Assembly (NCBI GenBank): GCA_029213265.1
Contig: JARGNG010000018.1
Coordinates: 2,693 to 66,692 of the forward strand
DNA from: Verrucomicrobiales bacterium
GTDB lineage: Bacteria > Verrucomicrobiota > Verrucomicrobiia > Verrucomicrobiales > DEV007
Length of the DNA: 64,000 nucleotides
Reading direction: 5' to 3'
Both the position numbers and the translations under genes were made by a program. Below, piece after piece: positions 2,878 through 50,752 of the stretch (positions are counted from its first letter, which is position 1; the number at the start of each line of letters is the position of its first letter). The notes beneath the pieces are model-generated. The model had not been told where the DNA came from. It saw nothing but the letters and a program-made list of their open reading frames with translations, and made no database searches.

Positions 2878-3648
2878 TTAAACTGGGTCAGCCAAAACTG
2901 TGAGTATTGGCTTGATCAGGGAAGGTTCCATATCAGGAAATGCTTCGAGAAGGCGGCCGATTTTGCCCGTAATCAAAGGAGCGGCATAGCTGCTTCCGGT
3001 CTCCGTCTTTGTCTCGCCATTGAGCCAGGGTACTTCCACACGTTCCCCTCTCGCCAAAAAGGAAACCATTCTCCCCTTCCTCGAGAAAAACTCACTCCGA
3101 TCGCAATCAATTCCCCGTACGCTAATGACACTGGGAAAGTAGGCAGGCCATTCGCGAATCCCGGCATCGATATTGCTGCACGCGGCTACGATTTGCACGC
3201 CGGACAGGTAGGCCTGATCGACCCATTCTTTGTAGTCCATGACATAGCGGGGCAACCCGCGACATCCGAAACTGCAATTGATGACCTGATAGCCCCGTGA
3301 GATCGCCTGGTTCACACATTCAGCAATCACGAAACTTCTCGCATGATTGCTGGAATCAAGCGCCCGGAAGCTCCCCAACTGTATTCCGGGTGCTTCCCCA
3401 AGAAGCAGACTCGCAACCGCCGTTCCATGGCCGTACACATCAGTCGAGTCGTTTTCCTCAATCTTCAAATTCACCCCGTCACACGAGACCGCGATATCGT
3501 CCGTCAGAGCGACTCCGTTCAAAGCGGGGTGGGAAATGTCGACTCCGGAGTCGATCAATGCCACTTTCACACCGCTACCCGTTCCCGTTCGGAGAGCTTC
3601 TCTCGCATCCGCCAATTCCGGCCAGTGCTGTGGGAGGTCAGCCGACAT
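2878..3648 (-). CDS. Minimal S8-family serine peptidase (subtilase)
   Basis: This 256-aa protein is a subtilisin-like protease reduced to the catalytic domain. The triad is intact: Asp33 in LIDSGVD, His74 in YGHGTAVASLL, and Ser220 in GSSYAAP. An Asn in the AACSN segment is the likely oxyanion residue. There is no signal peptide, no inhibitor pro-domain and no C-terminal anchor, so it should act in the cytoplasm. Small cytoplasmic subtilases of this kind are known from peptide-maturation loci such as PatA-type proteases. Its start overlaps the end of the GAF gene by 11 bp, so the two are translationally coupled. A substrate encoded in the same cassette is plausible; the only small candidate is the 73-aa protein at 4240-4461. 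Confidence 0.85.
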   Translation of the reverse strand: MSADLPQHWPELADAREALRTGTGSGVKVALIDSGVDISHPALNGVALTDDIAVSCDGVNLKIEENDSTDVYGHGTAVASLLLGEAPGIQLGSFRALDSSNHARSFVIAECVNQAISRGYQVINCSFGCRGLPRYVMDYKEWVDQAYLSGVQIVAACSNIDAGIREWPAYFPSVISVRGIDCDRSEFFSRKGRMVSFLARGERVEVPWLNGETKTETGSSYAAPLITGKIGRLLEAFPDMEPSLIKPILTVLADPV

Positions 3649-4240
3649 CGCTTAATCCCAGCGCAGACGACAGAATACTCTCATTTGCAAGGCGTTCCAT
3701 AACATTGGAAACGCGCGCGAGGATTTCGACATCACCGGAACTGAACCCGTCGCGATCACCTTCCGCAGTCATTTCTTCCAGCTGAACGCACGAAATCACC
3801 CCGCGAAGGCCAAACGCGAAGTAGAAAGGCACTGCAATCATAGCCGTTGTATGCTTCGCGATCTTCCGGTCGAGCGTATCGTCGTGACCGGAGCTGCCTT
3901 TAATATTGTTCTCGCAATAGGGTTGCTGCTGCGAGAAGACCATCGAAACAATGCCCGAACCAACCGGTTGTTCAAAACCAATCAAGGTCTCGGCCTGGTC
4001 GCCCGAATTGTAGACCACTACGAGACTTTCCTTTTTCAGGTCAGCTAGCCAAATGGTGCCTTCGCATCCTCCCACATGGGAAAAGGCCTCTTTCAGCAGA
4101 GAGATCGAAACGGAATCGAAGAGCCCGATCAGATCAGCAGGTCCGCACGATCTGAACCAAGTCTCAACGTGTTCTTCCAGTTCGCTTCCAACGCGGGCGA
4201 ACTCGGGATTCCGCAATAAGCGGGTACGGGCACCGATCAT
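3638..4240 (-). CDS. GAF-domain protein
   Basis: This 200-aa soluble protein has a helical N-terminus (about 1-45) and a GAF-like sensor fold covering the rest. Support comes from the segments EGTIWLADLKKESLVVVYNS, GSGIVSMVF, a MIAVPFYF strand and RGVISCVQLEE, followed by a C-terminal helix. GAF domains bind small ligands, haem or cyclic nucleotides, or serve as dimerisation units. No kinase, cyclase or DNA-binding domain is attached. Its ATG shares one base with the stop of the upstream small gene (TAATG), and its 3' end overlaps the subtilase start, so all three are co-translated. A sensory or regulatory role towards the subtilase is an inference. Confidence 0.75.
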   Translation of the reverse strand: MIGARTRLLRNPEFARVGSELEEHVETWFRSCGPADLIGLFDSVSISLLKEAFSHVGGCEGTIWLADLKKESLVVVYNSGDQAETLIGFEQPVGSGIVSMVFSQQQPYCENNIKGSSGHDDTLDRKIAKHTTAMIAVPFYFAFGLRGVISCVQLEEMTAEGDRDGFSSGDVEILARVSNVMERLANESILSSALGLSDVG

Positions 4241-4461
4241 TATTGCTGCGCCTTGAGCTTACTGACTAGCTCGTGGAATGCCTTTTCATTTCCGAGGATT
4301 TCGGGAAGAAGCTCGTCTCTGGAACCTGCATCCAGTTTGCCTTCGGCAAACTTCTGGATCATTTCGATCTGCTCGTCGCTGAGGGGAGAAGCAGAGCGTC
4401 CGGAAACCTCCGGGCCCAGGCTTTCGAGGAACTGGGCGATGATTGAAATTTCGTTATTCAT
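4240..4461 (-). CDS. Small helical protein, first gene of the subtilase cassette
   Basis: This 73-aa protein is of unknown function. I prefer the ATG at 4461; an in-frame ATG at 4494 would add 11 residues (MPTTHYPLITI) and neither has a clear ribosome-binding site. The sequence has an N-terminal hydrophobic patch (ISIIAQFLESLG), a Pro/Ser hinge, and a C-terminal pair of amphipathic helices with a G-KLDAGSRDELLPEIL segment. That C-terminal layout resembles the short helical domain at the start of many anti-sigma factors, without the zinc ligands. It contains no Cys. Because it opens a cassette containing a protease and a PqqD-like protein, it could be a regulatory partner or a processed peptide; neither is shown. 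Confidence 0.6.
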   Translation of the reverse strand: MNNEISIIAQFLESLGPEVSGRSASPLSDEQIEMIQKFAEGKLDAGSRDELLPEILGNEKAFHELVSKLKAQQ

Positions 4462-4690
4462 GATTGTTATCAGGGGGTAGTGGGTAGTGGGCATTCGGGA
4501 AGAAAGACGTCACACGGCTCTATCTTATGCAGGAAAAGATCATTATACGGAAGAAAAATGCTCCAGATAAAGCCCAATGCCCCCCCCTTGGTAGTCGAAA
4601 AACAGCAACTTGGAAATGAGTTCCGGTTGCCCGAGAGACAATCAGTCAGCACTCGTAGAAGATAAAAGTATAGTATTTATTGTTTTTGTA

Positions 4691-4719
4691 TTGACTTTAA
4701 TTTACGCCCCGAGTATCCT
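4691..4719 (+). promoter_or_regulatory. Sigma-70-type promoter of candidate small RNA
   Basis: TTGACT at 4691-4696 and TATCCT at 4714-4719 are separated by exactly 17 bp. The upstream flank is AT-rich. Transcription would start near 4724-4727 and run into the hairpin terminator about 50 bp further on. Confidence 0.55.
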
Positions 4720-4723
4720 CAGG

Positions 4724-4812
4724 AACAAACATCGTCTATCCAGACGTTTGTTTTGTGTTGAGGGGTTATAAGGCGGCATCGATCTGAACAGGTCGGTGCC
4801 GTCTTTCTTTTT
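4724..4812 (+). ncRNA. Candidate small RNA of about 89 nt
   Basis: A promoter-like sequence and an intrinsic terminator enclose about 89 bp with no reading frame. The predicted 5' part folds as a hairpin: ACAAAC (4725-4730) pairs with GTTTGT (4746-4751), then a 3-nt bulge, then GTCT (4734-4737) pairs with AGAC (4742-4745) around an ATCC loop. A 20-nt single-stranded linker (4752-4771) containing GAGGGG follows, then the terminator stem. It does not match the signal recognition particle, 6S, tmRNA or RNase P RNAs as I know them. It may be an independent small RNA, or an early-terminated leader of smc 540 bp downstream. Confidence 0.45.
4772..4812 (+). terminator. Rho-independent terminator of candidate small RNA
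   Basis: A 14-bp stem (4772-4785 with 4790-4803) closes on the 4-nt loop GAAC and is followed by a T-rich tract at 4804-4812. All 14 positions pair in the plus-strand RNA, three of them as G-U wobbles. Those positions would be A-C mismatches on the other strand, so the structure is oriented to the plus strand. Confidence 0.75.
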
Positions 4813-4894
4813 CCAGGCCCTCCAATCATTCAGTCGGCCGGCAACGCCGCGTCGCAGCCAATTCCGCGATATCCCCTTCTCCCGTAAAGGAAAA

Positions 4895-4933
4895 CGGCCC
4901 GGCATTCGGACTTTCATCCTTCACGCCGGGCCG
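4895..4933. other. GC-rich inverted repeat
   Basis: CGGCCCGGC at 4895-4903 pairs perfectly with GCCGGGCCG at 4925-4933 around a 21-nt loop. It lies between the candidate small RNA and smc. There is no U-tract, so it is not an obvious terminator; it may be a protein-binding or REP-like element. Confidence 0.5.
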
Positions 4934-5348
4934 CCCCGTTCCGCACAAATTGTAAATTTCCGGGCTGAGCTACCAAGGGGAAAGGTCCCGCATCAACCGT
5001 CTGCGTTTGATTTTCCACCAAACAACCCTCTAACGTACCACCTAAAAATGAAGTCGCAAGAAAAAATATGCATTTTATTCAATTTTGCGGTTTACTTTTT
5101 AAAATTGTCGCAAGAATGGGCAAAATGAGCGCACAAACCCTCCCATTTGGCGGCCCACGGTTCCTAACATTCCGATCTCAAATCACTGATTCGGCTCCGG
5201 GAAATTTCAAAAACATCTCTTTTTTCGCTCGACACTAGCTCAGAAGTCTTCATTGTTAGGTCAAGTTTATCACTTTTGAGAATTAAATTCTTAGAAATGC
5301 GCTGAATTTGATCCGCCCTGAAGTCTATCCTCCGCAACTATCCTGTCA

Positions 5349-8300
5349 ATGCGTCTGAAATCGCTCGAGATGCACGGCTTTAAGTCGTTCGCAGACAAAA
5401 CGAAACTGGAGTTTCACGAAGGTGTTACCGGTATTGTCGGTCCCAACGGATGCGGCAAATCGAACATCGTCGACTCCATGCGCTGGGTGCTCGGGGAAAC
5501 TTCGGCAAAAGCCTTGCGCGGCGGGGAAATGGCGGATGTCATTTTCAACGGAACCGATCGCCGCTCCCCTCTTGGCATGGCGGAGGTGACACTGACCCTC
5601 TCCGGATGTGAAGGGATTCTCGATACCGAATACGATGAGGTATCTCTCGGTCGCCGCGTTTTTCGAGACGGAAAAGGCGAGTATTTGATCAACAAGCAAC
5701 CGTGTCGCCTCAAAGACATCCACAATCTGCTGATGGATACCGGAATCGGCCGGACGAGCTACTCCATCATGGAGCAGGGCAAGATTGATATGCTTCTGAG
5801 CTCGAAGCCGGAAGACCGTCGCGCCGTTTTTGAAGAAGCCGCGGGGATCACCAAATACAAATCTCAGAAGAAAGAAGCGCTCCGCAAACTGGACTACACC
5901 GAAGCCAACCTCGTCCGGATTCGGGATGTGATTGCAGAGAACGAGCGTCAGATTCGCTCCCTCTCCCGACAGGCGTCCAAAGCAAAGCGTTATCAATCCC
6001 TCTTCGACGATGTGAAGACGCTGGAGCTTCACCTAAGCCACAAACAATGGCGCGAACTCCTTGCTCAGAAATCAGAGTTGAATACCTCTGTGCACGGTTT
6101 GCGAATGCAACAGGACGAACTCGAGGATGCGATTGAAAAACGCCAGGCCCAGATGGCCGCCGCCCGGGTGGAATACCAAGAGATCGAAAACCGGCTCACC
6201 GACCTGCAATCCCAGTTGGCCCGCCTCGACAACGAAATTGGCGGAGCCAACAATCGAATCGAATTCAACGGCGAGCGCACCCATGAGCACAGTGTTCTCA
6301 TCAAAAAGAACGAGATTTCTATTGTCGAAGCGTCTGAGAAGAAGGAGAAACAACAGTCTGACATCAATGCCGCGAATCGCCAACTCAAAGGAGTTGAGGA
6401 GCGAATTGCGGAAGAACAGTCCAATGTGGAAAAACTCGAGTCGGAAACCCGCGAAGCCCGCACCACCCGCGAGACGCTGAATCAGCGATTGCGCGAACTC
6501 GAAGAGGAGCGGAGTCAACGCAAGAGCCGGATTGCCAGTCTGGAAGCAACGATCGATACAAATCGCAAGCAAAGTGAATCAGATGAACAAAGAGATCGGC
6601 AACTCACGGACGAGATCTCGCGGCTCCGCGAAAGCGAAGAGGAACGGAAAAAGGACGCGACAGAGCTCAAGGAGCGGATCACGGACCATCAGAAATCGAT
6701 TGAGCAATTCGAAGAAAACCTTGCGGAACTCGATCAGAAATACCACCAGGCAAAGCGGGCTGCATCCGACATGCAGGAGGACCTTTCCTCCCTGCACAAA
6801 CTTTTCGCAGAGAAGCAGTCCCGTCTCGAAGTTCTCGAACAGCTTCTCGCTGACGGAGAAGGATTCGAAAAGGGAACCAGAGCAATCGTTCAGGACTTTG
6901 CAGATGCTGATGAATATCGTGGAAATATTCAGGCTCCCCTTTCCCGCCACATCAAAGTGGAGACCAAATACGCGGAAGCGATCGAGGCTTCTCTCGGACG
7001 CAGGCTGCAGGCGGTGATCGTTTCCGAACTGGATATCGTGGAAAAGCTCGTCAATGCCCTGCAACGGGACAAGCTGGGGCAGGCATCCTTGATTGCGAAG
7101 ACCGCACTGGAGGGAGAGCCAATGCCCCCGTCCCGACGGGCACCTCTTGGCTCGATTGGCTGGGCCATTGATAAAGTGGACTGCGAAAAGGAAGTGGGCC
7201 CGATCATGAGCCGCCTCCTTGAGAATGTTCTCCTCGCCGAAGACCTCAGCACTGCGATCCGGCTTCACCGGAAACATCCCGAGATCGCCGTAGCCACTCT
7301 CGACGGTGCCTTTGTCACGAAAGAGGGAATCATTCAGGGGGGGAAGTCCGGGGATGATTCGGTATCCGTCCTCAAGATGCAGAGCGAGATCGAAGAACTC
7401 CGCACGATCTGCGAATCACTCAAGCATGAAGTGACGACCCGGCAGGAGCGCCGTGACCAGCTCAATTCCCGCGTCGACGAATTCGAGGGCACCCTCTCCC
7501 AGGCAAGAGAGCGACTGCAGCAGAAAAAAGTCGCCTCCTCAACCCTGGAAGGAAAGCTTGCCCTGGTCGAACGCGACCTGAATCAGTTTCGAAACAAAGC
7601 GGAGAGTTTGGAATGGGAGCATCGTGATGTGGCGGAACGACGTCAGAAAGTCGCGGCTGATCTTGAGAACCACGAAGAGGAAAGAGAAGATTCACTGGGC
7701 CGGGTTACGGAACTCGATCTGGAGTCCGGGACCATCATCTCGACGCTCACCGAAGCCAGACTTCGCGAAGAGGAGCTTACCGAGAAAGTGACGGAGGCCC
7801 GCACCAACCTCGCCGTCGAACAGGGCACCCGGCAGAATCTCGAAGAACAGCGCGACCCCATGATTTCCCGTCTCGCTGAGCTGGAAGATCAGATCACCAC
7901 CTCCCGTTCGGACATTGAGAGCTATGGGGAACGGATCGAGAGCGCCCGTATCGAGAACGAAGCGCTAACTGAAAACATTGCAAGATGGAAAACGGAGTCG
8001 GAAGCCGCGAAATCCGAGCAGTCGGGGATTCTTGTGGAGCGGGAAGGCTACTCCTCCCGGATTGAGGAAGGTGAGCAGGAACTCACGCAGAAACGCAAGG
8101 AAGTGCAGCGGGTCGCCGAGCAGCGGGGTAAGGAGGAAGTCAGGATCGCACAGTTCGATATCAAGATTGAAAACGTCGAGCGAGTCTGTCGCGACCGCTA
8201 CCGGACCGAGCTGGAATTCTTTGAACCGGACAGCCATGCTCTTCTTCTCGCGATTGAAGAGCGGAAGAAAAACGGAGCATCCCGATCCATCCGTATCGCC

Positions 8301-9104
8301 TCTGCAGAGTCTTCCGGAGAGGATGACCCCTCGATTTCCGAGGAAGCGGAATCCGCGGGAGATCCCGAAGGAGAAGCAGAGGGAGAATTGCAGGATCCTG
8401 CGGAACCGGACTGGGACTTTGTCGAGGATGTTGTTTCGCAACTCCGTACGAAGCTTGATTCAATGGGACCGGTCAATATCGATGCCATCGAGGAGTTTGA
8501 TGAACTCGAAGAGCACTATCGATTCAACGCACAGCAGTTGGAAGACCTCGAGAATTCCAAGGAAGAATTGCTTCGCATGATTGCGCGAATCAATCGGGAC
8601 ACCCGCAAGATGTTCACGGAGACTTTTGAGAAAATTCGAAAGAATTTCCGCGAGATGTTCAAGGAACTCTTTGGTGAGAAGTCCAAGGCAGATCTCGTTT
8701 TGCTGGATGACGGCGACCCCCTCGAATGCGGCATCGATGTCATCGCCAAACCGCCCGGCAAAAAACTGCAATCGATCAGCCTCCTCTCCGGTGGAGAGCG
8801 ATCCATGACTGCGGTGGCACTTCTCTTTGGGATCTACATGGTGAAACCATCTCCGTTCTGTGTGCTCGATGAGCTGGACGCTCCGCTCGATGAAGCGAAC
8901 ATCACCCGCTTCATTCGCGTTCTCGACCGCTTCATCGGAGACAGTCAGTTTGTGATCGTTACCCACTCGAAGCGAACGATGTCACGGGCCGACGTCATGT
9001 ACGGTGTATCGATGGAGGAATTCGGCGTGTCGAAGACCGTCGGCGTGACCTTCTCCAAGGCGGGCGAATCCAAAGGGATGAAGCAGGCTGCTGTGGGCGG
9101 CTAG
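5349..9104 (+). CDS. smc: Chromosome segregation protein SMC
   Basis: This 1251-aa protein is the structural maintenance of chromosomes ATPase, core of the bacterial condensin that organises and segregates the chromosome. The head is split as in the family. Walker A (GPNGCGKSN) is at residues 31-39, the signature LSGGERS begins at about 1146, and Walker B is LDELDAP with Asp1174 and Glu1175. Two long coiled coils flank a hinge at roughly 510-670. An acidic, low-complexity insert (about 980-1025, rich in Glu, Ser and Asp) interrupts the C-terminal coil before the head. It is slightly longer than Bacillus SMC (about 1186 aa), mostly because of this insert. The ATG at 5349 starts directly with the conserved MRLKSLEMHGFKSF. 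No scpA or scpB is in the window. Confidence 0.97.
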   Translation: MRLKSLEMHGFKSFADKTKLEFHEGVTGIVGPNGCGKSNIVDSMRWVLGETSAKALRGGEMADVIFNGTDRRSPLGMAEVTLTLSGCEGILDTEYDEVSLGRRVFRDGKGEYLINKQPCRLKDIHNLLMDTGIGRTSYSIMEQGKIDMLLSSKPEDRRAVFEEAAGITKYKSQKKEALRKLDYTEANLVRIRDVIAENERQIRSLSRQASKAKRYQSLFDDVKTLELHLSHKQWRELLAQKSELNTSVHGLRMQQDELEDAIEKRQAQMAAARVEYQEIENRLTDLQSQLARLDNEIGGANNRIEFNGERTHEHSVLIKKNEISIVEASEKKEKQQSDINAANRQLKGVEERIAEEQSNVEKLESETREARTTRETLNQRLRELEEERSQRKSRIASLEATIDTNRKQSESDEQRDRQLTDEISRLRESEEERKKDATELKERITDHQKSIEQFEENLAELDQKYHQAKRAASDMQEDLSSLHKLFAEKQSRLEVLEQLLADGEGFEKGTRAIVQDFADADEYRGNIQAPLSRHIKVETKYAEAIEASLGRRLQAVIVSELDIVEKLVNALQRDKLGQASLIAKTALEGEPMPPSRRAPLGSIGWAIDKVDCEKEVGPIMSRLLENVLLAEDLSTAIRLHRKHPEIAVATLDGAFVTKEGIIQGGKSGDDSVSVLKMQSEIEELRTICESLKHEVTTRQERRDQLNSRVDEFEGTLSQARERLQQKKVASSTLEGKLALVERDLNQFRNKAESLEWEHRDVAERRQKVAADLENHEEEREDSLGRVTELDLESGTIISTLTEARLREEELTEKVTEARTNLAVEQGTRQNLEEQRDPMISRLAELEDQITTSRSDIESYGERIESARIENEALTENIARWKTESEAAKSEQSGILVEREGYSSRIEEGEQELTQKRKEVQRVAEQRGKEEVRIAQFDIKIENVERVCRDRYRTELEFFEPDSHALLLAIEERKKNGASRSIRIASAESSGEDDPSISEEAESAGDPEGEAEGELQDPAEPDWDFVEDVVSQLRTKLDSMGPVNIDAIEEFDELEEHYRFNAQQLEDLENSKEELLRMIARINRDTRKMFTETFEKIRKNFREMFKELFGEKSKADLVLLDDGDPLECGIDVIAKPPGKKLQSISLLSGGERSMTAVALLFGIYMVKPSPFCVLDELDAPLDEANITRFIRVLDRFIGDSQFVIVTHSKRTMSRADVMYGVSMEEFGVSKTVGVTFSKAGESKGMKQAAVGG

Positions 9105-44081: not shown

Positions 44082-44113
44082 GCGGCTAGCGGCTAGCGGC
44101 TAGCGGCTAGCGG
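44082..44113. repeat. 7-bp tandem repeat, about 4.5 copies
   Basis: The 7-mer GCGGCTA is repeated four times with a partial fifth copy. Each junction also contains the palindrome GCTAGC. The array lies 24 bp downstream of the stop of the FtsK/EccC-like gene and 126 bp upstream of the cytochrome gene. Copy number could vary between strains. Confidence 0.85.
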
Positions 44114-44136: not shown

Positions 44137-47100
44137 CTACCCCGAGAACCAACTCAGGGGAGGTTCCGCGTAAGGACGGAAAATCTCGACCGTTCCGGTG
44201 GGCTCATCGTAGTAGAGAGCGCGGTTCAATCCGAGCTCCGAGGCCGCGCCGGAATCGATCAGGCTGGCGGAATCGGCGGCGCTCATCTGGAAGAGAACTT
44301 TCTTTTCAAACTCCCCTGCCGCCTTGCGGCCGAGGCAACGATTCACGTTGTTGTAGGAATCGACCGAAGTGATGAGATGGAAGCCCCACCCGGAGCCTTC
44401 GGTAATGATCTCGTTCAGGGACGTCGCCGGCTTCGCTTCCGTCTCCTCTTCCAGGGAAAAGCTGAAGTCCTCTTCGTAGCGGAGTTTCTTGTAGCGATGC
44501 AGCGAGGGAATGAAAAGGAAGGTCGAGCTGCCCGGCATCTCTGCTTCTCCATTGGAAATCTGCTTCATCTCCGCCGCGAGCTCATTGATGACGTCCCCGA
44601 ACTCATGCGCATTCGGAGTCACGACCCCGCCAATCGCCCTCACCGCTTCGCAAAAGAACGAGCTGTCATCCGGCTGGGCGAAACGATTGTCGATCAGAAC
44701 GAGCCGCGCCTTTTCTCCCAGCTGCTCGCGGAGCAATTTCAGTCCGACCACCGTCATCGAGTCGACCGCATCGTCCCGCTGGCCAACGACCAGCAGATTG
44801 GATCCGCTCTGACGCTCGAAGCGAATTTCGGTCGGTCCTTTGATCGCATTCGGTGCACCGAGGAAAATTCGGGGTGGCCCGGCAAACTCCAGCTGATCGA
44901 GAAATTTCTGCACTGCGGTGTCGCGAGTCACATCGCCGGGCGCGTTGCCTTCAAAGACGACCAGTTCGCCGTCGGCCTTCCCTGTCTCGATGGCGCGCTC
45001 CCTCACTTCGGTGAGATAGGTATCCCGCTCTTTTTCATCGAGCCATACGACCTGGAAAGGCGAGTTGGCTTCGACGGCTCCCGCACGATCGTTGTAGATC
45101 CCCTCTCCCGGCCGGGTCAGCAAACGCGGGGCGGGGTTGGAATCGTCCATGATCAAATAGGCATCCGCCTCGTTGCAGGCCAGTGCGATCCGGACCGTCA
45201 TCTGGCCGAGCGTCGCCCGGGCAAGGGTAAAGGCGCCACCGAGCGTCTGTGATCCTAACACGGCATGAATTCCGAAGGCACGTCCCTGTCTCACGATCCG
45301 GTCGAGAAGAACCGCCGCCTGCTGCGAAATCTGGTCGTCCTGGGTGAAGAACTCCTGAAATTCGTCGATCAGAAGGAGCGTTCTCGGCATCGGCTTCGCA
45401 TTGGGCGTCGCCCGATAACCGGGGACATCCTGCACTCCGGACGCCCGGAACAGTTCGCCCCGCTCTTTGAGTTCTTCATCGAGCCGCTGCAGAACGCTTA
45501 AGCCAAACTCGCGATCACTCTCAATTGCAATGACCCGGGCATGTGGCAGTTGGGCGTCGGCATAACATTTGAATTCGACCCCTTTCTTGAAGTCGATCAG
45601 GTAAAACTCGACCTCGTGGGGATCGCACCAGAGCGCCAGGTTGGAAACGATGACGTGAAACAGCGTCGACTTACCGGAACCCGTCTTACCGGCGATGAGC
45701 GCATGCTGGCAGGTTCCTTTTCCAAGAGCCAGTTGCTGCAGCTTGGTGGCGCCGCTTCGCCCGATCGGGACAGTGAGCTCTTTCGCGGTGTTGCCGGACC
45801 AGAGTTGCCCTTCCGGAGGTGCGATGAAGGAAAACGGGACCTCGATGCGATTCGAGTCGCGGTTGGCCTCTCCAATCCGATGCACCCATTGGGAGAAAAC
45901 CTCCGGCGCCGGGGGGTGATCCAGCGTGAGCTTGGACCCGGGCACGGGATTGTCCTTGAGGAAAAATCCGTCCATGTTGCTCCGCAGGCAGAGGCAGGAT
46001 TTTCGCAGATCTTCCATCTGGAATCCGGACGGCAGGGCGGCACGCTGATCACAGTGGATCAACAGAAATACGCCACAACGGGCACCGGAGGAAGCGATGC
46101 TCATGAGCCTTCGCGCGGCCTGCTCGGTGAATCCGTTCGGAAAATCGGCCACCACCAGGAAATGATACCGCTCCGCAATCGTTCCCGCAGCTTCGTTGTA
46201 TTGCGTAATCGTCTCGTAATCGCTTCGCAAATACATCTGGATCACTTTTTCCATGTGATCACAAAGCTCGCCGACGCGCTGATCGATTTGATCCGGCTGC
46301 GTTCGAATCCGGGAATTGATCAACACCTCTTCATAGTCGGAAAGATGCATCAGACCGGCAAAGCTTTCCCCGAGACCGATTGGATCGACAAAGGAAAAAG
46401 ACAGTCGCCCCGGAGGTGAGTTCGCCAGCCATCCGAGCGTGAGATAATTCAGAAACTCAACCGCCTCATCGCGACCGAACTGTTTCGTCTCGATCAAAAT
46501 CGAAGCCATATCCGGAATGCGCAAACGCATCGGAGCCTGGTAGGATATCGGATCCGGAAGCTGCAGAGTCTCCGACTTGGGCAGCTTGATCTCGTTCGAC
46601 TCGCCGTCGTATTCGACCTCTCCGAACCGAAGGGTTTCGAGAAAGACCTGAGGGGCTTCCCACTCCGAAGGCGATTGCTCAAACCAGCGGGCTTGCTTCG
46701 CCTCTGCCGATTCGGCGACCAGATTTTGATGCCCCGGGAGAACCGATGCCTGCCATTGTTCGACGAGAGATCCAAACTGCCGCTGCAGCTCGCCCTGCAC
46801 ATCCGAATGGGAGGAGGTTTGATTGCCCTGGAGATCGTCGATCCGAGCGTCCCGCCTGCTTTCCTCTTCCGCAATTTTCAAAGCCAGTTTCTGATCGACC
46901 GACCCAACCCGCTGGTCCCTTGCCGTTTCGATCCGGGACTTCAAATCGCTGGCCCGTTGCTCCACGTCCTCCGCTCCCGCGTATTTGCTATCGGCTCCTG
47001 CCGGCCCCTCCGCGGTTCCGAGTCCTTTCTCGAAACCACTCTTCCGTTTTACGAAATCAGCTTCGATCGACTCGCTGGTTTTCTCATGCCAGGACTCGAG

Positions 47101-47988
47101 CGTTTCTTTGAATGAAAGTCGCTTCCCCTTCGCATTCACAAACGCGTCCTTCGTCTCTTTGAGAAACTTCGCGGAGGAAGACTTCGCCGCAAAAAACATC
47201 GCGACACAGGCAATCGACAGAGCAACCGCGATCCCGATCGTCAAGCCGTAGCTGAGGACTGGTCCTCCCAGGGCCGCCGAAGCAAAGGGAGCTCCACCGC
47301 CGATCAGCAGCAGGAGAAAAATCTGCAGGACGAGTGGGAATCCATTGAACCATCCAACGAGAGGATTTTTCTGATGTTTCCGAAACTTGGCGGCAAGATC
47401 GGAGTGGCTCTGCAAAAGCTCTTCCGCAGAAGGAGATTCCCCGCTTCCGGCCTCGACGCTCTTGAGTCCTTCGATCAGCGAGATTTGCAGCGAGCGGAAT
47501 CCCTTGAGCGACTTCACCGCCGCTTTCTCCAACTTGATGAAGCGCGACTGGATGGATTGAGACTCGGCGGAATTTTCCGCATACTCCGCGGCCATCCGGG
47601 CCAGCCTCGATTCGCGCTCCTTGCCCGCCTCCATGAATTCCCGCTGAAGCTGAAAGCGACGGGCCCCTTCCACCTCCTGGATTCCCGCGATGACCTGATT
47701 CCGTACTTCAATCTGGGCCTTATCGATCCGGATCTGCCTGGCGTCATTGACCTGCTGGATCAATGCCTTTTCCTCCTCCGCCGCCCGCTGCAGCAGCGAA
47801 ACGGCCTCGGCGGACTCCTTCTCGATCAATGCCTTCTGCTCGGCAAGATCCTGACGGAAATTCGAATCTTTGAGTTGGCGGGCCCGTTCAATCCCCACTT
47901 CCCGATCCGCAAACGACTGCGTCCCAGTGACGACATTCTCGAGCCACTCCAGCGTTTCGCCGGCAGATGCTTTATTCTTCGATTTCAC
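44137..47988 (-). CDS. FtsK/EccC-like ATPase of a type VII-like secretion locus
   Basis: This 1283-aa membrane ATPase resembles EccC/EssC, the motor of type VII (ESX) secretion. A long coiled coil (about 10-205) precedes two membrane helices (about 218-270). A second coiled coil (about 275-420) follows. The first ATPase-like module (about 440-720) contains FVDPIGLGESFAGLMHL but no Walker A. The second (about 730-1000) is complete: AGKTGSGKS with Lys773 and LLLIDEFQEFF with Asp875. The third (about 1030-1283) again lacks Walker A (VVGQRDDAVDS in its place). The gene overlaps the 73-aa gene by 17 bp and ends a four-gene operon. The cytoplasmic coiled coils are unlike the FHA or DUF domains of known EssC or EccC proteins. 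Cell-division FtsK is excluded: there are no four-helix membrane region and no gamma domain. Confidence 0.85.
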   Translation of the reverse strand: MKSKNKASAGETLEWLENVVTGTQSFADREVGIERARQLKDSNFRQDLAEQKALIEKESAEAVSLLQRAAEEEKALIQQVNDARQIRIDKAQIEVRNQVIAGIQEVEGARRFQLQREFMEAGKERESRLARMAAEYAENSAESQSIQSRFIKLEKAAVKSLKGFRSLQISLIEGLKSVEAGSGESPSAEELLQSHSDLAAKFRKHQKNPLVGWFNGFPLVLQIFLLLLIGGGAPFASAALGGPVLSYGLTIGIAVALSIACVAMFFAAKSSSAKFLKETKDAFVNAKGKRLSFKETLESWHEKTSESIEADFVKRKSGFEKGLGTAEGPAGADSKYAGAEDVEQRASDLKSRIETARDQRVGSVDQKLALKIAEEESRRDARIDDLQGNQTSSHSDVQGELQRQFGSLVEQWQASVLPGHQNLVAESAEAKQARWFEQSPSEWEAPQVFLETLRFGEVEYDGESNEIKLPKSETLQLPDPISYQAPMRLRIPDMASILIETKQFGRDEAVEFLNYLTLGWLANSPPGRLSFSFVDPIGLGESFAGLMHLSDYEEVLINSRIRTQPDQIDQRVGELCDHMEKVIQMYLRSDYETITQYNEAAGTIAERYHFLVVADFPNGFTEQAARRLMSIASSGARCGVFLLIHCDQRAALPSGFQMEDLRKSCLCLRSNMDGFFLKDNPVPGSKLTLDHPPAPEVFSQWVHRIGEANRDSNRIEVPFSFIAPPEGQLWSGNTAKELTVPIGRSGATKLQQLALGKGTCQHALIAGKTGSGKSTLFHVIVSNLALWCDPHEVEFYLIDFKKGVEFKCYADAQLPHARVIAIESDREFGLSVLQRLDEELKERGELFRASGVQDVPGYRATPNAKPMPRTLLLIDEFQEFFTQDDQISQQAAVLLDRIVRQGRAFGIHAVLGSQTLGGAFTLARATLGQMTVRIALACNEADAYLIMDDSNPAPRLLTRPGEGIYNDRAGAVEANSPFQVVWLDEKERDTYLTEVRERAIETGKADGELVVFEGNAPGDVTRDTAVQKFLDQLEFAGPPRIFLGAPNAIKGPTEIRFERQSGSNLLVVGQRDDAVDSMTVVGLKLLREQLGEKARLVLIDNRFAQPDDSSFFCEAVRAIGGVVTPNAHEFGDVINELAAEMKQISNGEAEMPGSSTFLFIPSLHRYKKLRYEEDFSFSLEEETEAKPATSLNEIITEGSGWGFHLITSVDSYNNVNRCLGRKAAGEFEKKVLFQMSAADSASLIDSGAASELGLNRALYYDEPTGTVEIFRPYAEPPLSWFSG

Positions 47989-48193
47989 AGTCGTTCCTCA
48001 GTTTGGCCAAAATTTTGTCGAGATTCTCCATCGCCGCAACGGCGTTGTCGGCGGCGTCGAACAGGGGTTGCATGTAGGTCTGGTCAAATTCACGGCCCTT
48101 CTGGTCCCGCCACACTTCCTGGGTATCCTGCCAGTTACGAAGGAGTTCGCGCGAAATACCGAGAAGGCGGCCTTTGGTGTTCTGCAATGCCAT
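47972..48193 (-). CDS. Small WXG100-like helical protein
   Basis: This 73-aa helical protein has the motif W-x-D-x5-F (WRDQKGREF, Trp at about residue 28) in the middle, followed by a long second helix (about 40-70). The layout of two helices with a W-x-[GD] turn is that of WXG100 proteins, the small substrates or partners of type VII secretion. It is slightly shorter than the usual 90-100 aa. It lacks a signal peptide. It lies between the coiled-coil gene (6-bp gap) and the ATPase gene (17-bp overlap), so it is almost certainly expressed with them. Confidence 0.7.
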   Translation of the reverse strand: MALQNTKGRLLGISRELLRNWQDTQEVWRDQKGREFDQTYMQPLFDAADNAVAAMENLDKILAKLRNDCEIEE

Positions 48194-48199
48194 CTCTTT

Positions 48200-48727
48200 T
48201 TATTCTACGTCGTCCGTTTCGGACCCGGTGGGAGGAGGGGAAGAAGACGCCGGCATCCCACCGGACGAATACTCATCGAGCAGGCGAATCGATTCACTCA
48301 AAAAGCTCACCGCATGCTTCATATCACTATCGAGCAGGAATCGGAGTTTCTCCACTTTGCGCGCCTCGACTTCCACGGTGGAGTCAAAATTCCTCGCCCA
48401 CCCAGCGACTGCTCGCATCGTTTCCTCAAGGACACGAATCTCGCGTCGCTTCTTGTTAATCTGCATCTGGGCTCCGGTTTTGGCTGTCTTGAGACTGGAA
48501 AGGCGGGCGGAAAACATCTCTGCCTCGAGCATTTCCAGTTCCCGGTTTCGCCGCTTCATGTCCTGCGTGAGCTTCAGCTTCTGCTCCGTCTGGAGCCAGA
48601 TCCGGGTTCGCTTTACCTCTTCGCTGACTTCGTCGAGAATGGAATTCACCCGCTCCAAATAAACGACGAGATTGGACCGGAAACGATCCAATGCCTCGAT
48701 GCTGGCGACGTTTGCTTTGTCAGCCAC
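48200..48727 (-). CDS. Coiled-coil protein of the type VII-like locus
   Basis: This 175-aa protein is almost entirely helical and highly charged. A first helix pair (about 10-60) is followed by a long coiled coil (about 65-155) and an unstructured Ser/Pro/Asp tail. It has no signal peptide, no membrane helix and no recognised domain. Two tryptophans are present (IWLQTEQ and VAGWARNF), but no W-x-G turn. It may be a chaperone, an assembly factor or a larger substrate of the ATPase. It begins 1 bp after the upstream WXG100-like gene, and the 73-aa gene follows after 6 bp. Confidence 0.7.
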   Translation of the reverse strand: MADKANVASIEALDRFRSNLVVYLERVNSILDEVSEEVKRTRIWLQTEQKLKLTQDMKRRNRELEMLEAEMFSARLSSLKTAKTGAQMQINKKRREIRVLEETMRAVAGWARNFDSTVEVEARKVEKLRFLLDSDMKHAVSFLSESIRLLDEYSSGGMPASSSPPPTGSETDDVE

Positions 48728-48728
48728 C

Positions 48729-49001
48729 TTATCGCTGGTTCAGGTATTCCTGGATTCGCTGCGCTTTTCGTAATAGGAAAGGAGCCTGATGGCTCGAACT
48801 CTCCATGAAACGACGCAACACTTTCATCGTCTCCTGAAACTCACCCGCGAACTTCGCGTGCTCGTGATCCTGCCAGGTATCGCTCAGGCCTGCAAACCGG
48901 GCCTGGAGAGAGGACATGGAGTTCTGAAGGTCGCCGTTGAATCGTTTTAATTCCTCGGCAAACTGCTTCAACTCATCCGGATCTACTATCGCTTTCGACA
49001 T
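48729..49001 (-). CDS. WXG100-family protein
   Basis: This 90-aa helical protein is typical of WXG100 (ESAT-6-like) proteins in length and layout. An N-terminal helix (about 7-37) is followed by the turn motif WQDHEHAKF (Trp at about residue 41, W-x-D in place of W-x-G) and a second helix (about 45-85). Such proteins form hairpin dimers and are the substrates or structural partners of type VII secretion. The ATG at 49001 is preferred; the frame is open to 49052 and would add 17 residues. It is the first gene of the operon and is divergent from the ABC-F gene. Confidence 0.82.
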   Translation of the reverse strand: MSKAIVDPDELKQFAEELKRFNGDLQNSMSSLQARFAGLSDTWQDHEHAKFAGEFQETMKVLRRFMESSSHQAPFLLRKAQRIQEYLNQR

Positions 49002-49144: not shown

Positions 49145-50752
49145 ATGCTGACGATACGCAAACTCAAAAAATCCTACGGAGGACAGACCCTTTTCGAGGA
49201 CGCCGACCTGCAGGTCAACTACGGCGAGCGCGTTGCTCTGGTCGGACCGAACGGAGCCGGAAAGTCGACGATTTTCCGCATCATTCTCGGGGACGAAGAA
49301 GCAGATAAAGGCACGGTGGAGCGGGACGAATGGACTTTGACCGGCTTCCTTCCTCAGGAAAGCGAAGATGTCGGAGACTACACCGTGATTGAGATCGCGA
49401 CCGGTCGCGCCGGAATGATCCAGGAGCTCGAAGCCACCTTGAAGAAGCTCGAGGAAGCAGGGGACGTCTCGTGCCCCGCCTACCTCGAGGCAGATGGAAA
49501 ATTCACCGCTCTCAACGATCCGAAGGTGGAGGCGAAAGCGAAAGAAATGCTCCGCGGTCTTGGCTACAAAGAAACCGACTTTGACCGTCCCGCGAAAGAA
49601 ATGAGCGGAGGTTGGATCATGCGGGCCCACCTCGCCCGGCTTCTCGTGATCGAGCCGGACCTGCTGATGCTGGACGAGCCCACCAACCACCTCGACCTGA
49701 TGTCCCTGCTCTGGTTTCAGGACTACCTGAAGAACTACTCCGGAGCGATTCTCATGATTTCGCACGATCGCGAGTTTATGGATGAACTGGTCGAATCAGT
49801 CCACGACATCGAAGAACGAAAGCTCGTTCACTACACCGGCAACTACTCCGACTTCGAAGTCCAAAGGCAAAAAAACTACGAAAACCGGAACAACGCCTAC
49901 AAGAACCAGCAGAAGCAGATCAAGGAACTCCAGGCCTTCGCGAACAAGTTCCGCTCCGTTTCCTCCAAGGCAAGCCAGGCACAATCCAAGCTCAAGGAGA
50001 TTGAGCGAATGGAGAAAATCGAAAAGCCGCAGGCTCCGAAAAAGCCGTTCCGTTTCCAGATCCCCGATCCTCCCCGCGGTGGACAAAAGGCGATCACCCT
50101 GGAAGGAGTCGATTTTGCCTACGGAGACAACGTGGTTTACGAAGGACTCGATATCACCATCGAACGGGGGGAACGCACCGTGCTGGTCGGCCCCAACGGA
50201 TCCGGAAAATCAACTCTTCTGAAGTTGCTCGCCGACGAACTGCAGCCTCGGGCAGGGAAACGAATCCCCGGCCACAATGCCAAGATCGGCTACTTTTCCC
50301 AGCATCGCGCGGCGACCCTGAACCCGAACAACTCCGTCGTCAGCGAGGTCCTCGAAGCCGCCCCCACGATGCGGGAAGATGAAGCCCGGGGCATTCTCGG
50401 GTCCTTCATGTTCCGCAAAGAGGAAGTCTACAAAATGACGAAAGTTCTCAGTGGAGGAGAAAAATCCCGGCTCAACCTCGTGAAGTTTCTCGTCGACCCG
50501 CCGAACATCCTCCTCATGGATGAGCCGACGACCCACCTCGATATTCTCACGGTGGAGTCACTCATCCTCGCGCTCGAAAGCTACGCCGGAACCCTCGTCT
50601 TCATTTCTCACGACGTGCACTTCATCAAGCAGCTCGCCACCGACGTCATTCACGTGAACAACGGAGAAGCGAAACGCTTTCACGGCGACTGGGACTACTT
50701 CATCGAGAAGTCGGGCGCAGGTGATGAGCGGGCCGCCTTGACTTCGGAGTAG
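49145..50752 (+). CDS. ABC-F family ATP-binding protein
   Basis: This 535-aa cytoplasmic protein has two ABC ATPase domains in one chain with no membrane part, as in ABC-F translation factors (EttA, Uup, YbiT). The first domain has Walker A GPNGAGKST, the signature MSGGWIMRAHLARL and Walker B LLMLDEPTNHLD. The linker between the two (about 240-320) is helical and Lys-rich. The second domain has GPNGSGKST, LSGGEKSRLNLVKFL and ILLMDEPTTHLD. ABC-F proteins bind the ribosomal E site and help in stalled translation or antibiotic protection. The ATG at 49145 starts the first domain directly. Confidence 0.95.
   Translation: MLTIRKLKKSYGGQTLFEDADLQVNYGERVALVGPNGAGKSTIFRIILGDEEADKGTVERDEWTLTGFLPQESEDVGDYTVIEIATGRAGMIQELEATLKKLEEAGDVSCPAYLEADGKFTALNDPKVEAKAKEMLRGLGYKETDFDRPAKEMSGGWIMRAHLARLLVIEPDLLMLDEPTNHLDLMSLLWFQDYLKNYSGAILMISHDREFMDELVESVHDIEERKLVHYTGNYSDFEVQRQKNYENRNNAYKNQQKQIKELQAFANKFRSVSSKASQAQSKLKEIERMEKIEKPQAPKKPFRFQIPDPPRGGQKAITLEGVDFAYGDNVVYEGLDITIERGERTVLVGPNGSGKSTLLKLLADELQPRAGKRIPGHNAKIGYFSQHRAATLNPNNSVVSEVLEAAPTMREDEARGILGSFMFRKEEVYKMTKVLSGGEKSRLNLVKFLVDPPNILLMDEPTTHLDILTVESLILALESYAGTLVFISHDVHFIKQLATDVIHVNNGEAKRFHGDWDYFIEKSGAGDERAALTSE

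Follow-up and report, generated by a model that had tools for sequence, protein, structure and literature searches.

A four-gene WXG100 and EccC/EssC-like ATPase module conserved in Verrucomicrobiota: a possible inner-membrane type VII-like exporter

Introduction

Can a single membrane ATPase and three small helical proteins sustain type VII-like (ESX-like) export in a bacterium that has an outer membrane? The question is raised by a four-gene operon at positions 44137-49001, minus strand, of a 64,000-nucleotide stretch of Verrucomicrobiales DNA (GenBank assembly GCA_029213265.1, contig JARGNG010000018.1, positions 2,693-66,692), the whole of which we call the window. The genes are wxg, cc, sm and an EccC/EssC-like ATPase gene, set apart by gaps of 1 and 6 bp and then by a 17-bp overlap. 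We put at roughly 50% the probability that they encode an inner-membrane ESX-like exporter, or an assembler of a helical complex, whose motor is driven by the second of three ATPase domains.

Type VII secretion systems (T7SS) of the types T7SSa and T7SSb have a WXG100 protein and a membrane ATPase as common components (PMC11217815; this and the other papers given by PubMed Central number are cited for excerpts of their text). The initial annotation of the window took such sets to be described in Gram-positive bacteria and mycobacteria only. This does not hold, as Gram-negative WXG sets or proteins are reported in PMC3482391, PMC4978471, PMC11090510 and PMC6471051, two of which name Verrucomicrobia. 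Footnote 6 of Table 1 in PMC3482391 describes verrucomicrobial solo WXG proteins with a YueA-like ATPase, called mobile; this ATPase has three HerA/FtsK domains, the middle one alone being active. WXG100 proteins in Verrucomicrobiae are mentioned in PMC6471051, citing Sutcliffe (2011). For HP0062/HP0066 of Helicobacter pylori, WxG plus FtsK has been termed a minimal type VII set (PMC4978471), HP0062 being a WXG100-like hairpin with WRD at its turn (PMC3397514). Finally, the Type III-A CoCoNuT cassette consists of an EssC-like ATPase, two WXG100 proteins and a coiled-coil D-ExK nuclease, for which secretion was inferred (PMC11090510).

Bare WXG/ATPase cores are already in print, and the conserved four-gene version described here is a variant of them. 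A search of the open-access literature for WXG100 or type VII together with Verrucomicrobia, Planctomycetes or Verrucomicrobiota returned no title or abstract opening on such a locus. Within that literature we did not find the fixed four-gene set, the membrane pair, a payload-free cc in such a set or the retention of the set when split.

Results

Conservation and distribution of the four-gene unit

The initial annotation had placed four genes on the minus strand, with the spacing given above, and all of this is borne out:

48729..49001, minus strand: wxg, a WXG100-superfamily protein of 90 amino acids (aa), with W-x-D at the turn (W43, D45) and the C-terminus YLxQ(R/H/K)
48200..48727, minus strand: cc, 175 aa, modelled as a single long antiparallel helical hairpin (helices 2-76 and 80-155)
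47972..48193, minus strand: sm, 73 aa, a second WXG100-like protein, W28-x-D30
44137..47988, minus strand: EccC/EssC-like ATPase, 1283 aa, assigned by PF01580 and by Foldseek matches to EccC

The start of wxg is an ATG at 49001, with an in-frame TTG alternative 51 bases upstream.

Gene content was counted in 80 loci, the best 80 of 375 relatives; a wider set of 111 loci holds the window's locus twice and overlapping genomes. All four genes are present in 71 of the 80, so their grouping is not a matter of chance and an artefact is ruled out. The set is thus conserved together, the point on which the initial annotation had proposed a survey of gene order. The genes are adjacent in these 71 loci except in L098, where two extra genes lie between cc and sm (3199-3800, with Pfam matches to Gp49-like, PF05973, and addiction-module antidote, PF21716). 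Six of the nine incomplete loci run off a contig end (L047, L048, L059, L077, L083 and L091); the other three are discussed below. In two genomes the set is split, with wxg-cc-sm on contig C50 and the ATPase gene on C5 in G066, and with wxg-cc on C90 and sm-ATPase on C94 in G075. Both hold the full set, which indicates that all four genes are kept even when unlinked.

Alignments of the module comprise 70 of 81 loci (the 80 and the window's), namely those with matches to all four genes and an ATPase of more than 1200 aa. Individual alignments have 30 rows (A1-A3), 34 (A4), 69 (A6: 66 of the 69 other copies, the window, L084 and L129) and 51 (A7). The operon could be imagined to have decayed from a mobile type VII-like toxin operon, since no toxin or immunity gene adjoins it, plasmid relatives exist and the ATPase of one locus, L109, is in two open frames. 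We give this next to no credence and reject it because the frames are open and strongly conserved in 70 copies; the retention of unlinked genes likewise speaks against decay.

The taxon label is verrucomicrobial in 75 of the 80 loci and bacterium, PVC group or Bacteroidetes in the rest. The nearest named relative among the matches listed is a Verrucomicrobiales genome, with 79% ATPase identity. With E-values of 5.3e-64 or lower, the ATPase is matched in 56 of 95 genomes (the window's own included), that is, in 39 of 58 from the window's family and 17 of 37 from the rest of the order; weaker matches in the 95 mostly cover the motor domain only. A phylum-wide sample gave a wxg match in 20 of 387 genomes, in one of them (G275) only within a nuclease-type cassette (see below). 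The sm profile matches 53 of 286 genomes of a class sample, 48 times near full length and five times over 29 residues with E near 1e-4. By these counts the module is common in the window's family and has a patchy distribution outside it.

The 56 genomes in which both WXG100 and the ATPase were looked for comprise 28 with the two together, two with the ATPase only, one with WXG100 only and 25 with neither; the gene of the WXG100-only genome reaches a contig end, and the two ATPase-only matches start less than 600 bases from one. The only PF06013 match in the window's genome is the module's own wxg. The 56 related genomes contain 30 such matches, 26 of them sharing a contig with the module's ATPase; the others lie in the split genomes G066 and G075 (two), at a contig end (G022) and in a nuclease-type cassette of G005.

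No neighbouring gene family is common to more than 9 of the 80 loci, of which 53 have 3 kb or more of upstream flank and 56 as much downstream; larger recurring clusters turned out to be other reading frames inside the four genes. As a separate observation, an open frame follows cc in G075 (L150, 2883-3497); it has no Pfam match and carries a hydrophobic motif which we take to resemble that of pilin.

The two WXG100-like proteins and the coiled-coil protein

The first small protein was proposed to be WXG100-like, and this is upheld by the Pfam profile PF06013, which wxg matches with 31.6 bits at a cut-off of 27.3. Its own profile has HP0062 of Helicobacter (3fx7) as the best PDB match (E 1.1e-10), and like HP0062/HP0066 the module pairs a WXG100 protein with an FtsK partner. 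W-x-D and the C-terminal YLxQ(R/H/K) are found in all 70 aligned copies, the window's included. All 70 also measure 90 aa, of which only the common C-terminal end is independent evidence, the starts having been chosen near that of the window protein. With a mean pairwise identity of 70%, wxg is the most conserved of the four proteins, ahead of the ATPase (47.5%), sm (42%) and cc (39%).

Neither cc nor sm reaches the cut-off of any Pfam family. The sm proteins are 68-79 aa long, with an invariant W-x-D and F36 and, in 70 of 70, a Cys among the last 12 residues. A direct hhalign comparison of wxg and sm gave a weak match (8.6% probability), and we therefore scored the sm profile against the 70 wxg proteins and 1659 shuffled or reversed decoys. 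The wxg proteins received between 9.4 and 20.0 bits (median 13.4), and 66 exceeded the highest-scoring decoy (10.4). Of nine further WXG proteins seven also exceeded that decoy (scores up to 24.4), the protein of L122 reached 9.8 and one of the L124 proteins had no score. The second small W-x-D protein of the initial annotation is thus a remote second WXG100-like protein.

The AlphaFold2 model of cc is one long helical hairpin (pLDDT 91, pTM 0.70). Foldseek found no fold match for it at E 0.001, the best (E 4.6e-3) being coiled coils of many kinds. W110, L150 and Y153 are invariant over 69 rows, and a Pfam scan of 69 cc proteins revealed no toxin domain, with five weak unrelated matches, each in one member.

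The ATPase

The ATPase begins with a coil, a predicted membrane pair and a second coil, followed by three FtsK-like domains (hydropathy and model):

47188..47358, minus strand: predicted transmembrane pair, residues ~211-229 and ~249-267, between two coiled-coil stretches; hydropathy, and helical in the model
45814..46668, minus strand: domain 1, residues ~441-725, well conserved and without a conserved P-loop; approximate boundaries
44989..45813, minus strand: domain 2, residues ~726-1000, with P-loop GKTGSGKS at residue 767 and LLLIDEF
44140..44988, minus strand: domain 3, residues ~1001-1283, well conserved and without a conserved P-loop; approximate boundaries

The sequence LLLIDEF of domain 2 is presumably the Walker B motif. 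All 70 ATPases have exactly one canonical P-loop, in domain 2; a looser pattern occurs outside it in six of the 70, at a different site each time. Domain 2 is also the best conserved part (mean pairwise identity 78%, against 55% for domain 1, 50% for domain 3 and 20-24% for the region of coils and membrane segments). Simple hydropathy predicts two N-terminal membrane segments in 58 of the 70, three in three, one in seven and none in two. In the ATPase tree the 19 membrane-type rows are grouped (91/86); the deep joins are unsure because of long branches elsewhere.

Against FtsK_SpoIIIE (PF01580) the protein scores 105.5 bits (cut-off 24, E 3.7e-30). The first eight Foldseek matches of its model are all EccC or EssC, the best being EccC 4nh0 (E 6.2e-31, 983 alignment columns with gaps), and with the hydropathy prediction they corroborate the EccC/EssC-like membrane ATPase of the initial annotation. 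A DNA translocase, or a conjugation coupling protein with accessory factors, is suggested by the FtsK/SpoIIIE superfamily of the motor and by FtsK and TcpA further among the Foldseek matches. We consider this very improbable and reject it: three tandem domains with a WXG100 partner fit EccC, not FtsK or TcpA, and a distinct FtsK-like match lies elsewhere in the window's genome (G000, contig C159).

The module resembles T7SSa and T7SSb in its WXG100 protein and its ATPase with membrane segments (two or more in 61 of 70). Its P-loop is conserved in domain 2 alone, unlike that of EssC, whose ATP-binding motifs are in D1 and D2 (PMC11090510). A P-loop in the middle of three domains only is shared, as is the phylum, with the solo WXG set of the PMC3482391 footnote. 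That footnote gives no gene set, cc or sm for its mobile sets, whereas the module seen here is a widespread chromosomal one of four genes.

Relatives and what fills the cc position

Five plasmid records, from Rhodococcus (two), Caballeronia, Deinococcus and Helicobacter, contain relatives 25-32% identical to the three-domain part, over 88-92% of its length. The Helicobacter (cat) plasmid L126 has the order WXG100, WHH nuclease protein, SMI1/KNR4, 77-aa protein and ATPase, with Pfam matches for the pair at 4030-5441 (WHH nuclease 44.6 bits, cut-off 25.1; SMI1/KNR4 29.1 bits, cut-off 25.4). The comparison was with this plasmid relative, not with HP0066: its ATPase has 823 aa, that of the Verrucomicrobial module is larger and has the predicted membrane pair, and the module lacks both the nuclease and the immunity gene.

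In a second type of relative the cc position is occupied by a coiled-coil protein with a D...ExK region, called by eye from conserved residues. This nuclease-type cassette (WXG100, D...ExK coiled-coil protein, small genes, ATPase) occurs in L123 (Caballeronia plasmid), L127 (verrucomicrobial genome G275), L128 (verrucomicrobial genome G290) and L141 (G005:C85:8000-20000, a genome of the window's own genus). A VWA gene precedes it in L123, L128 and L141, and a PP2C gene follows it in L123 (as annotated) and L141 (PP2C_2, 136 bits); the kinase-like and second VWA-like frames of L141 have no Pfam match. Both G290 and G005 carry such a cassette and a membrane-type module in one genome. The nuclease-like protein of the G005 cassette was found in one of 141 relatives, namely G005 itself.

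The content of the cc position in L126, L123, L127, L128 and L141 might suggest that the module is an ESX-like system for antibacterial delivery, with its toxin encoded at another site in the genome. We regard this as improbable: the 69 cc proteins have no Pfam toxin domain, the single PF06013 match of the window's genome is the module's own, and the 30 matches of the 56 related genomes lie where described above.

The separate cassettes L128 and L141 share with the CoCoNuT type a VWA gene, a D...ExK coiled-coil protein and the lack of a membrane segment. The window operon shares with the CoCoNuT cassette two WXG100-like proteins and a coiled-coil partner in one operon, a middle domain alone predicted to be active and a long N-terminal coiled coil. 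It differs in that the coiled-coil nuclease, DNA-mimic-like gene and flanking VWA genes of that cassette were not found in it, and in that its ATPase has predicted membrane helices, which the cassette lacks (PMC11090510).

Such relatives lend weight to an explanation without export, in which the WXG proteins and cc would be permanent subunits of an ATP-driven membrane-bound assembly serving stress response or intracellular defence. Such a role was put forward for relatives that form part of TerY-P and CoCoNuT loci, and the excerpt of PMC11090510 ties such cassettes to defence. Relatives adjoin VWA, PP2C, kinase and CARF genes (L123, annotated) or VWA and PP2C genes (L141), with TerD nearby in L122. 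The high identity of wxg would suit a structural part, and no cargo gene was found. The Verrucomicrobial module, however, has no recurrent neighbour family beyond the level given above, its ATPase has a predicted membrane pair that is missing in the eight other relatives, and PADLOC yields motor-domain and weak coiled-coil matches only. On balance we judge a fixed assembly rather unlikely, though it is the main alternative.

A phage origin was also considered and rejected. The 85 pattern matches of A4 in viral_contigs include no relative, and of 177 phage records matched by the L123 ATPase none matches over 80% of the query.

Cell envelope and other ESX parts

Five Omp85 matches in the window's genome show an outer membrane, in agreement with the initial annotation. 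LptD was not found in this genome (assembly 93% complete), the control being positive. No outer-membrane partner was found in the operon flanks, beyond which no search was made. As to the supposed absence of other ESX parts, the claim stands across 56 related genomes for YukC/EssB and YukD (see below); EccD, EccE, EsaA and mycosin were not searched for genome-wide. EccB gave no match in the 56 genomes, but its control was likewise without any match.

Surroundings of the operon

An ABC-F-like gene (ABC_tran match, 49145-50752) adjoins the operon. It lies directly beside it also in L033, L036 and L043, as expected from descent in close kin. A perfect 7-bp tandem repeat (4.6 copies of GCGGCTA) is found at 44082-44113, just beyond the ATPase stop codon, and a 40-bp one, with 3.3 copies, at 1-133, the edge of the window. 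The SMC gene at 5349-9104 (SMC_N, 217 bits) is the probable cause of the local AT skew of 0.275 there.

Discussion

The computed results concern the family relations of the proteins, the architecture of the motor with its predicted membrane segments, the linkage of the genes and the cc-position content of relatives. Of the readings considered they best support an inner-membrane ESX-like exporter or assembler that would work as follows. The transmembrane hairpin would anchor the ATPase in the inner membrane, and the coiled coils would drive its assembly. The middle domain would power the motor, domains 1 and 3, without a P-loop, possibly serving as docking surfaces. The wxg and sm proteins and the long hairpin cc may join in one helical complex, which the motor would recognize via the C-terminal tails conserved in wxg and in sm and push into or across the inner membrane. 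We infer that cc is the payload-free counterpart of the coiled-coil stems that bear a nuclease in related operons. On this view, what the module moves may be a structural helical product or some unlinked cargo rather than a toxin.

Several results weigh against this reading. L071, L082 and L084 (3 of 80 loci) are without small genes despite room for them; L071 is arranged like L029, from the split genome G075, and L082 and L084 are unexplained. The ATPase of L109, as noted, is in two open frames. The hallmarks of type VII substrates are a W-x-G turn motif and a C-terminal YxxxD/E export signal; W-x-G was seen in 0 of 70 wxg copies and YxxxD/E within the last 20 residues in 0 of 70. Though over the PF06013 cut-off, wxg stays under that of the stricter NCBIfam model WXG100_ESAT6, TIGR03930 (28.7 bits, cut-off 44.85). 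The ATPase is below the curated EccC/EssC models TIGR03924 (105.4 of 509 bits), TIGR03925 (88.2 of 347) and TIGR03928 (86.6 of 778). Its Foldseek TM-scores to EccC are low (0.30/0.36), indicating that the domains match better than their arrangement, which is not shown to match that of EccC. In 56 related genomes EssB/YukC was not found and YukD had no match over the cut-off and one below it (25.1 of 27 bits), with positive Bacillus subtilis controls in both cases.

The comparison of cc with nuclease stems meets difficulties of its own. The coiled-coil proteins of L123, L127 and L128 and of the remaining plasmid relatives L122, L124 and L125 reach no Pfam family at its cut-off; Pfam supports nuclease and immunity genes in the Helicobacter pair only, and the profile comparison of cc with the stems is not significant (E 0.098). 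None of the eight non-canonical ATPases has the membrane pair: those of L123, L124, L127, L128 and L141 have no segment, and those of L122, L125 and L126 one borderline segment each. The comparison therefore joins the module with proteins that may work in the cytosol.

It is nevertheless tempting to go one step further and suggest, tentatively, a stand-alone core type VII translocase of diderms: a stably inherited inner-membrane set that would need only its ATPase and the three helical proteins, without a toxin or further ESX subunits, would move a structural helical product to the periplasm or envelope and would be separate from the anchorless nuclease branch. The module differs from T7SSa and T7SSb in the lack of YukC, and of YukD over the cut-off, in its W-x-D motif and in the missing YxxxD/E tail.

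The minimum needed for type VII-like export and the root role of WXG100 proteins are open questions, and four genes that are retained across many Verrucomicrobiota, also where the set is split, provide a small system in which to test them. A toxin-free, membrane-anchored branch and a nuclease-bearing branch without the membrane pair are both present in one genus, and their comparison may show how such systems switch between envelope work and conflict.

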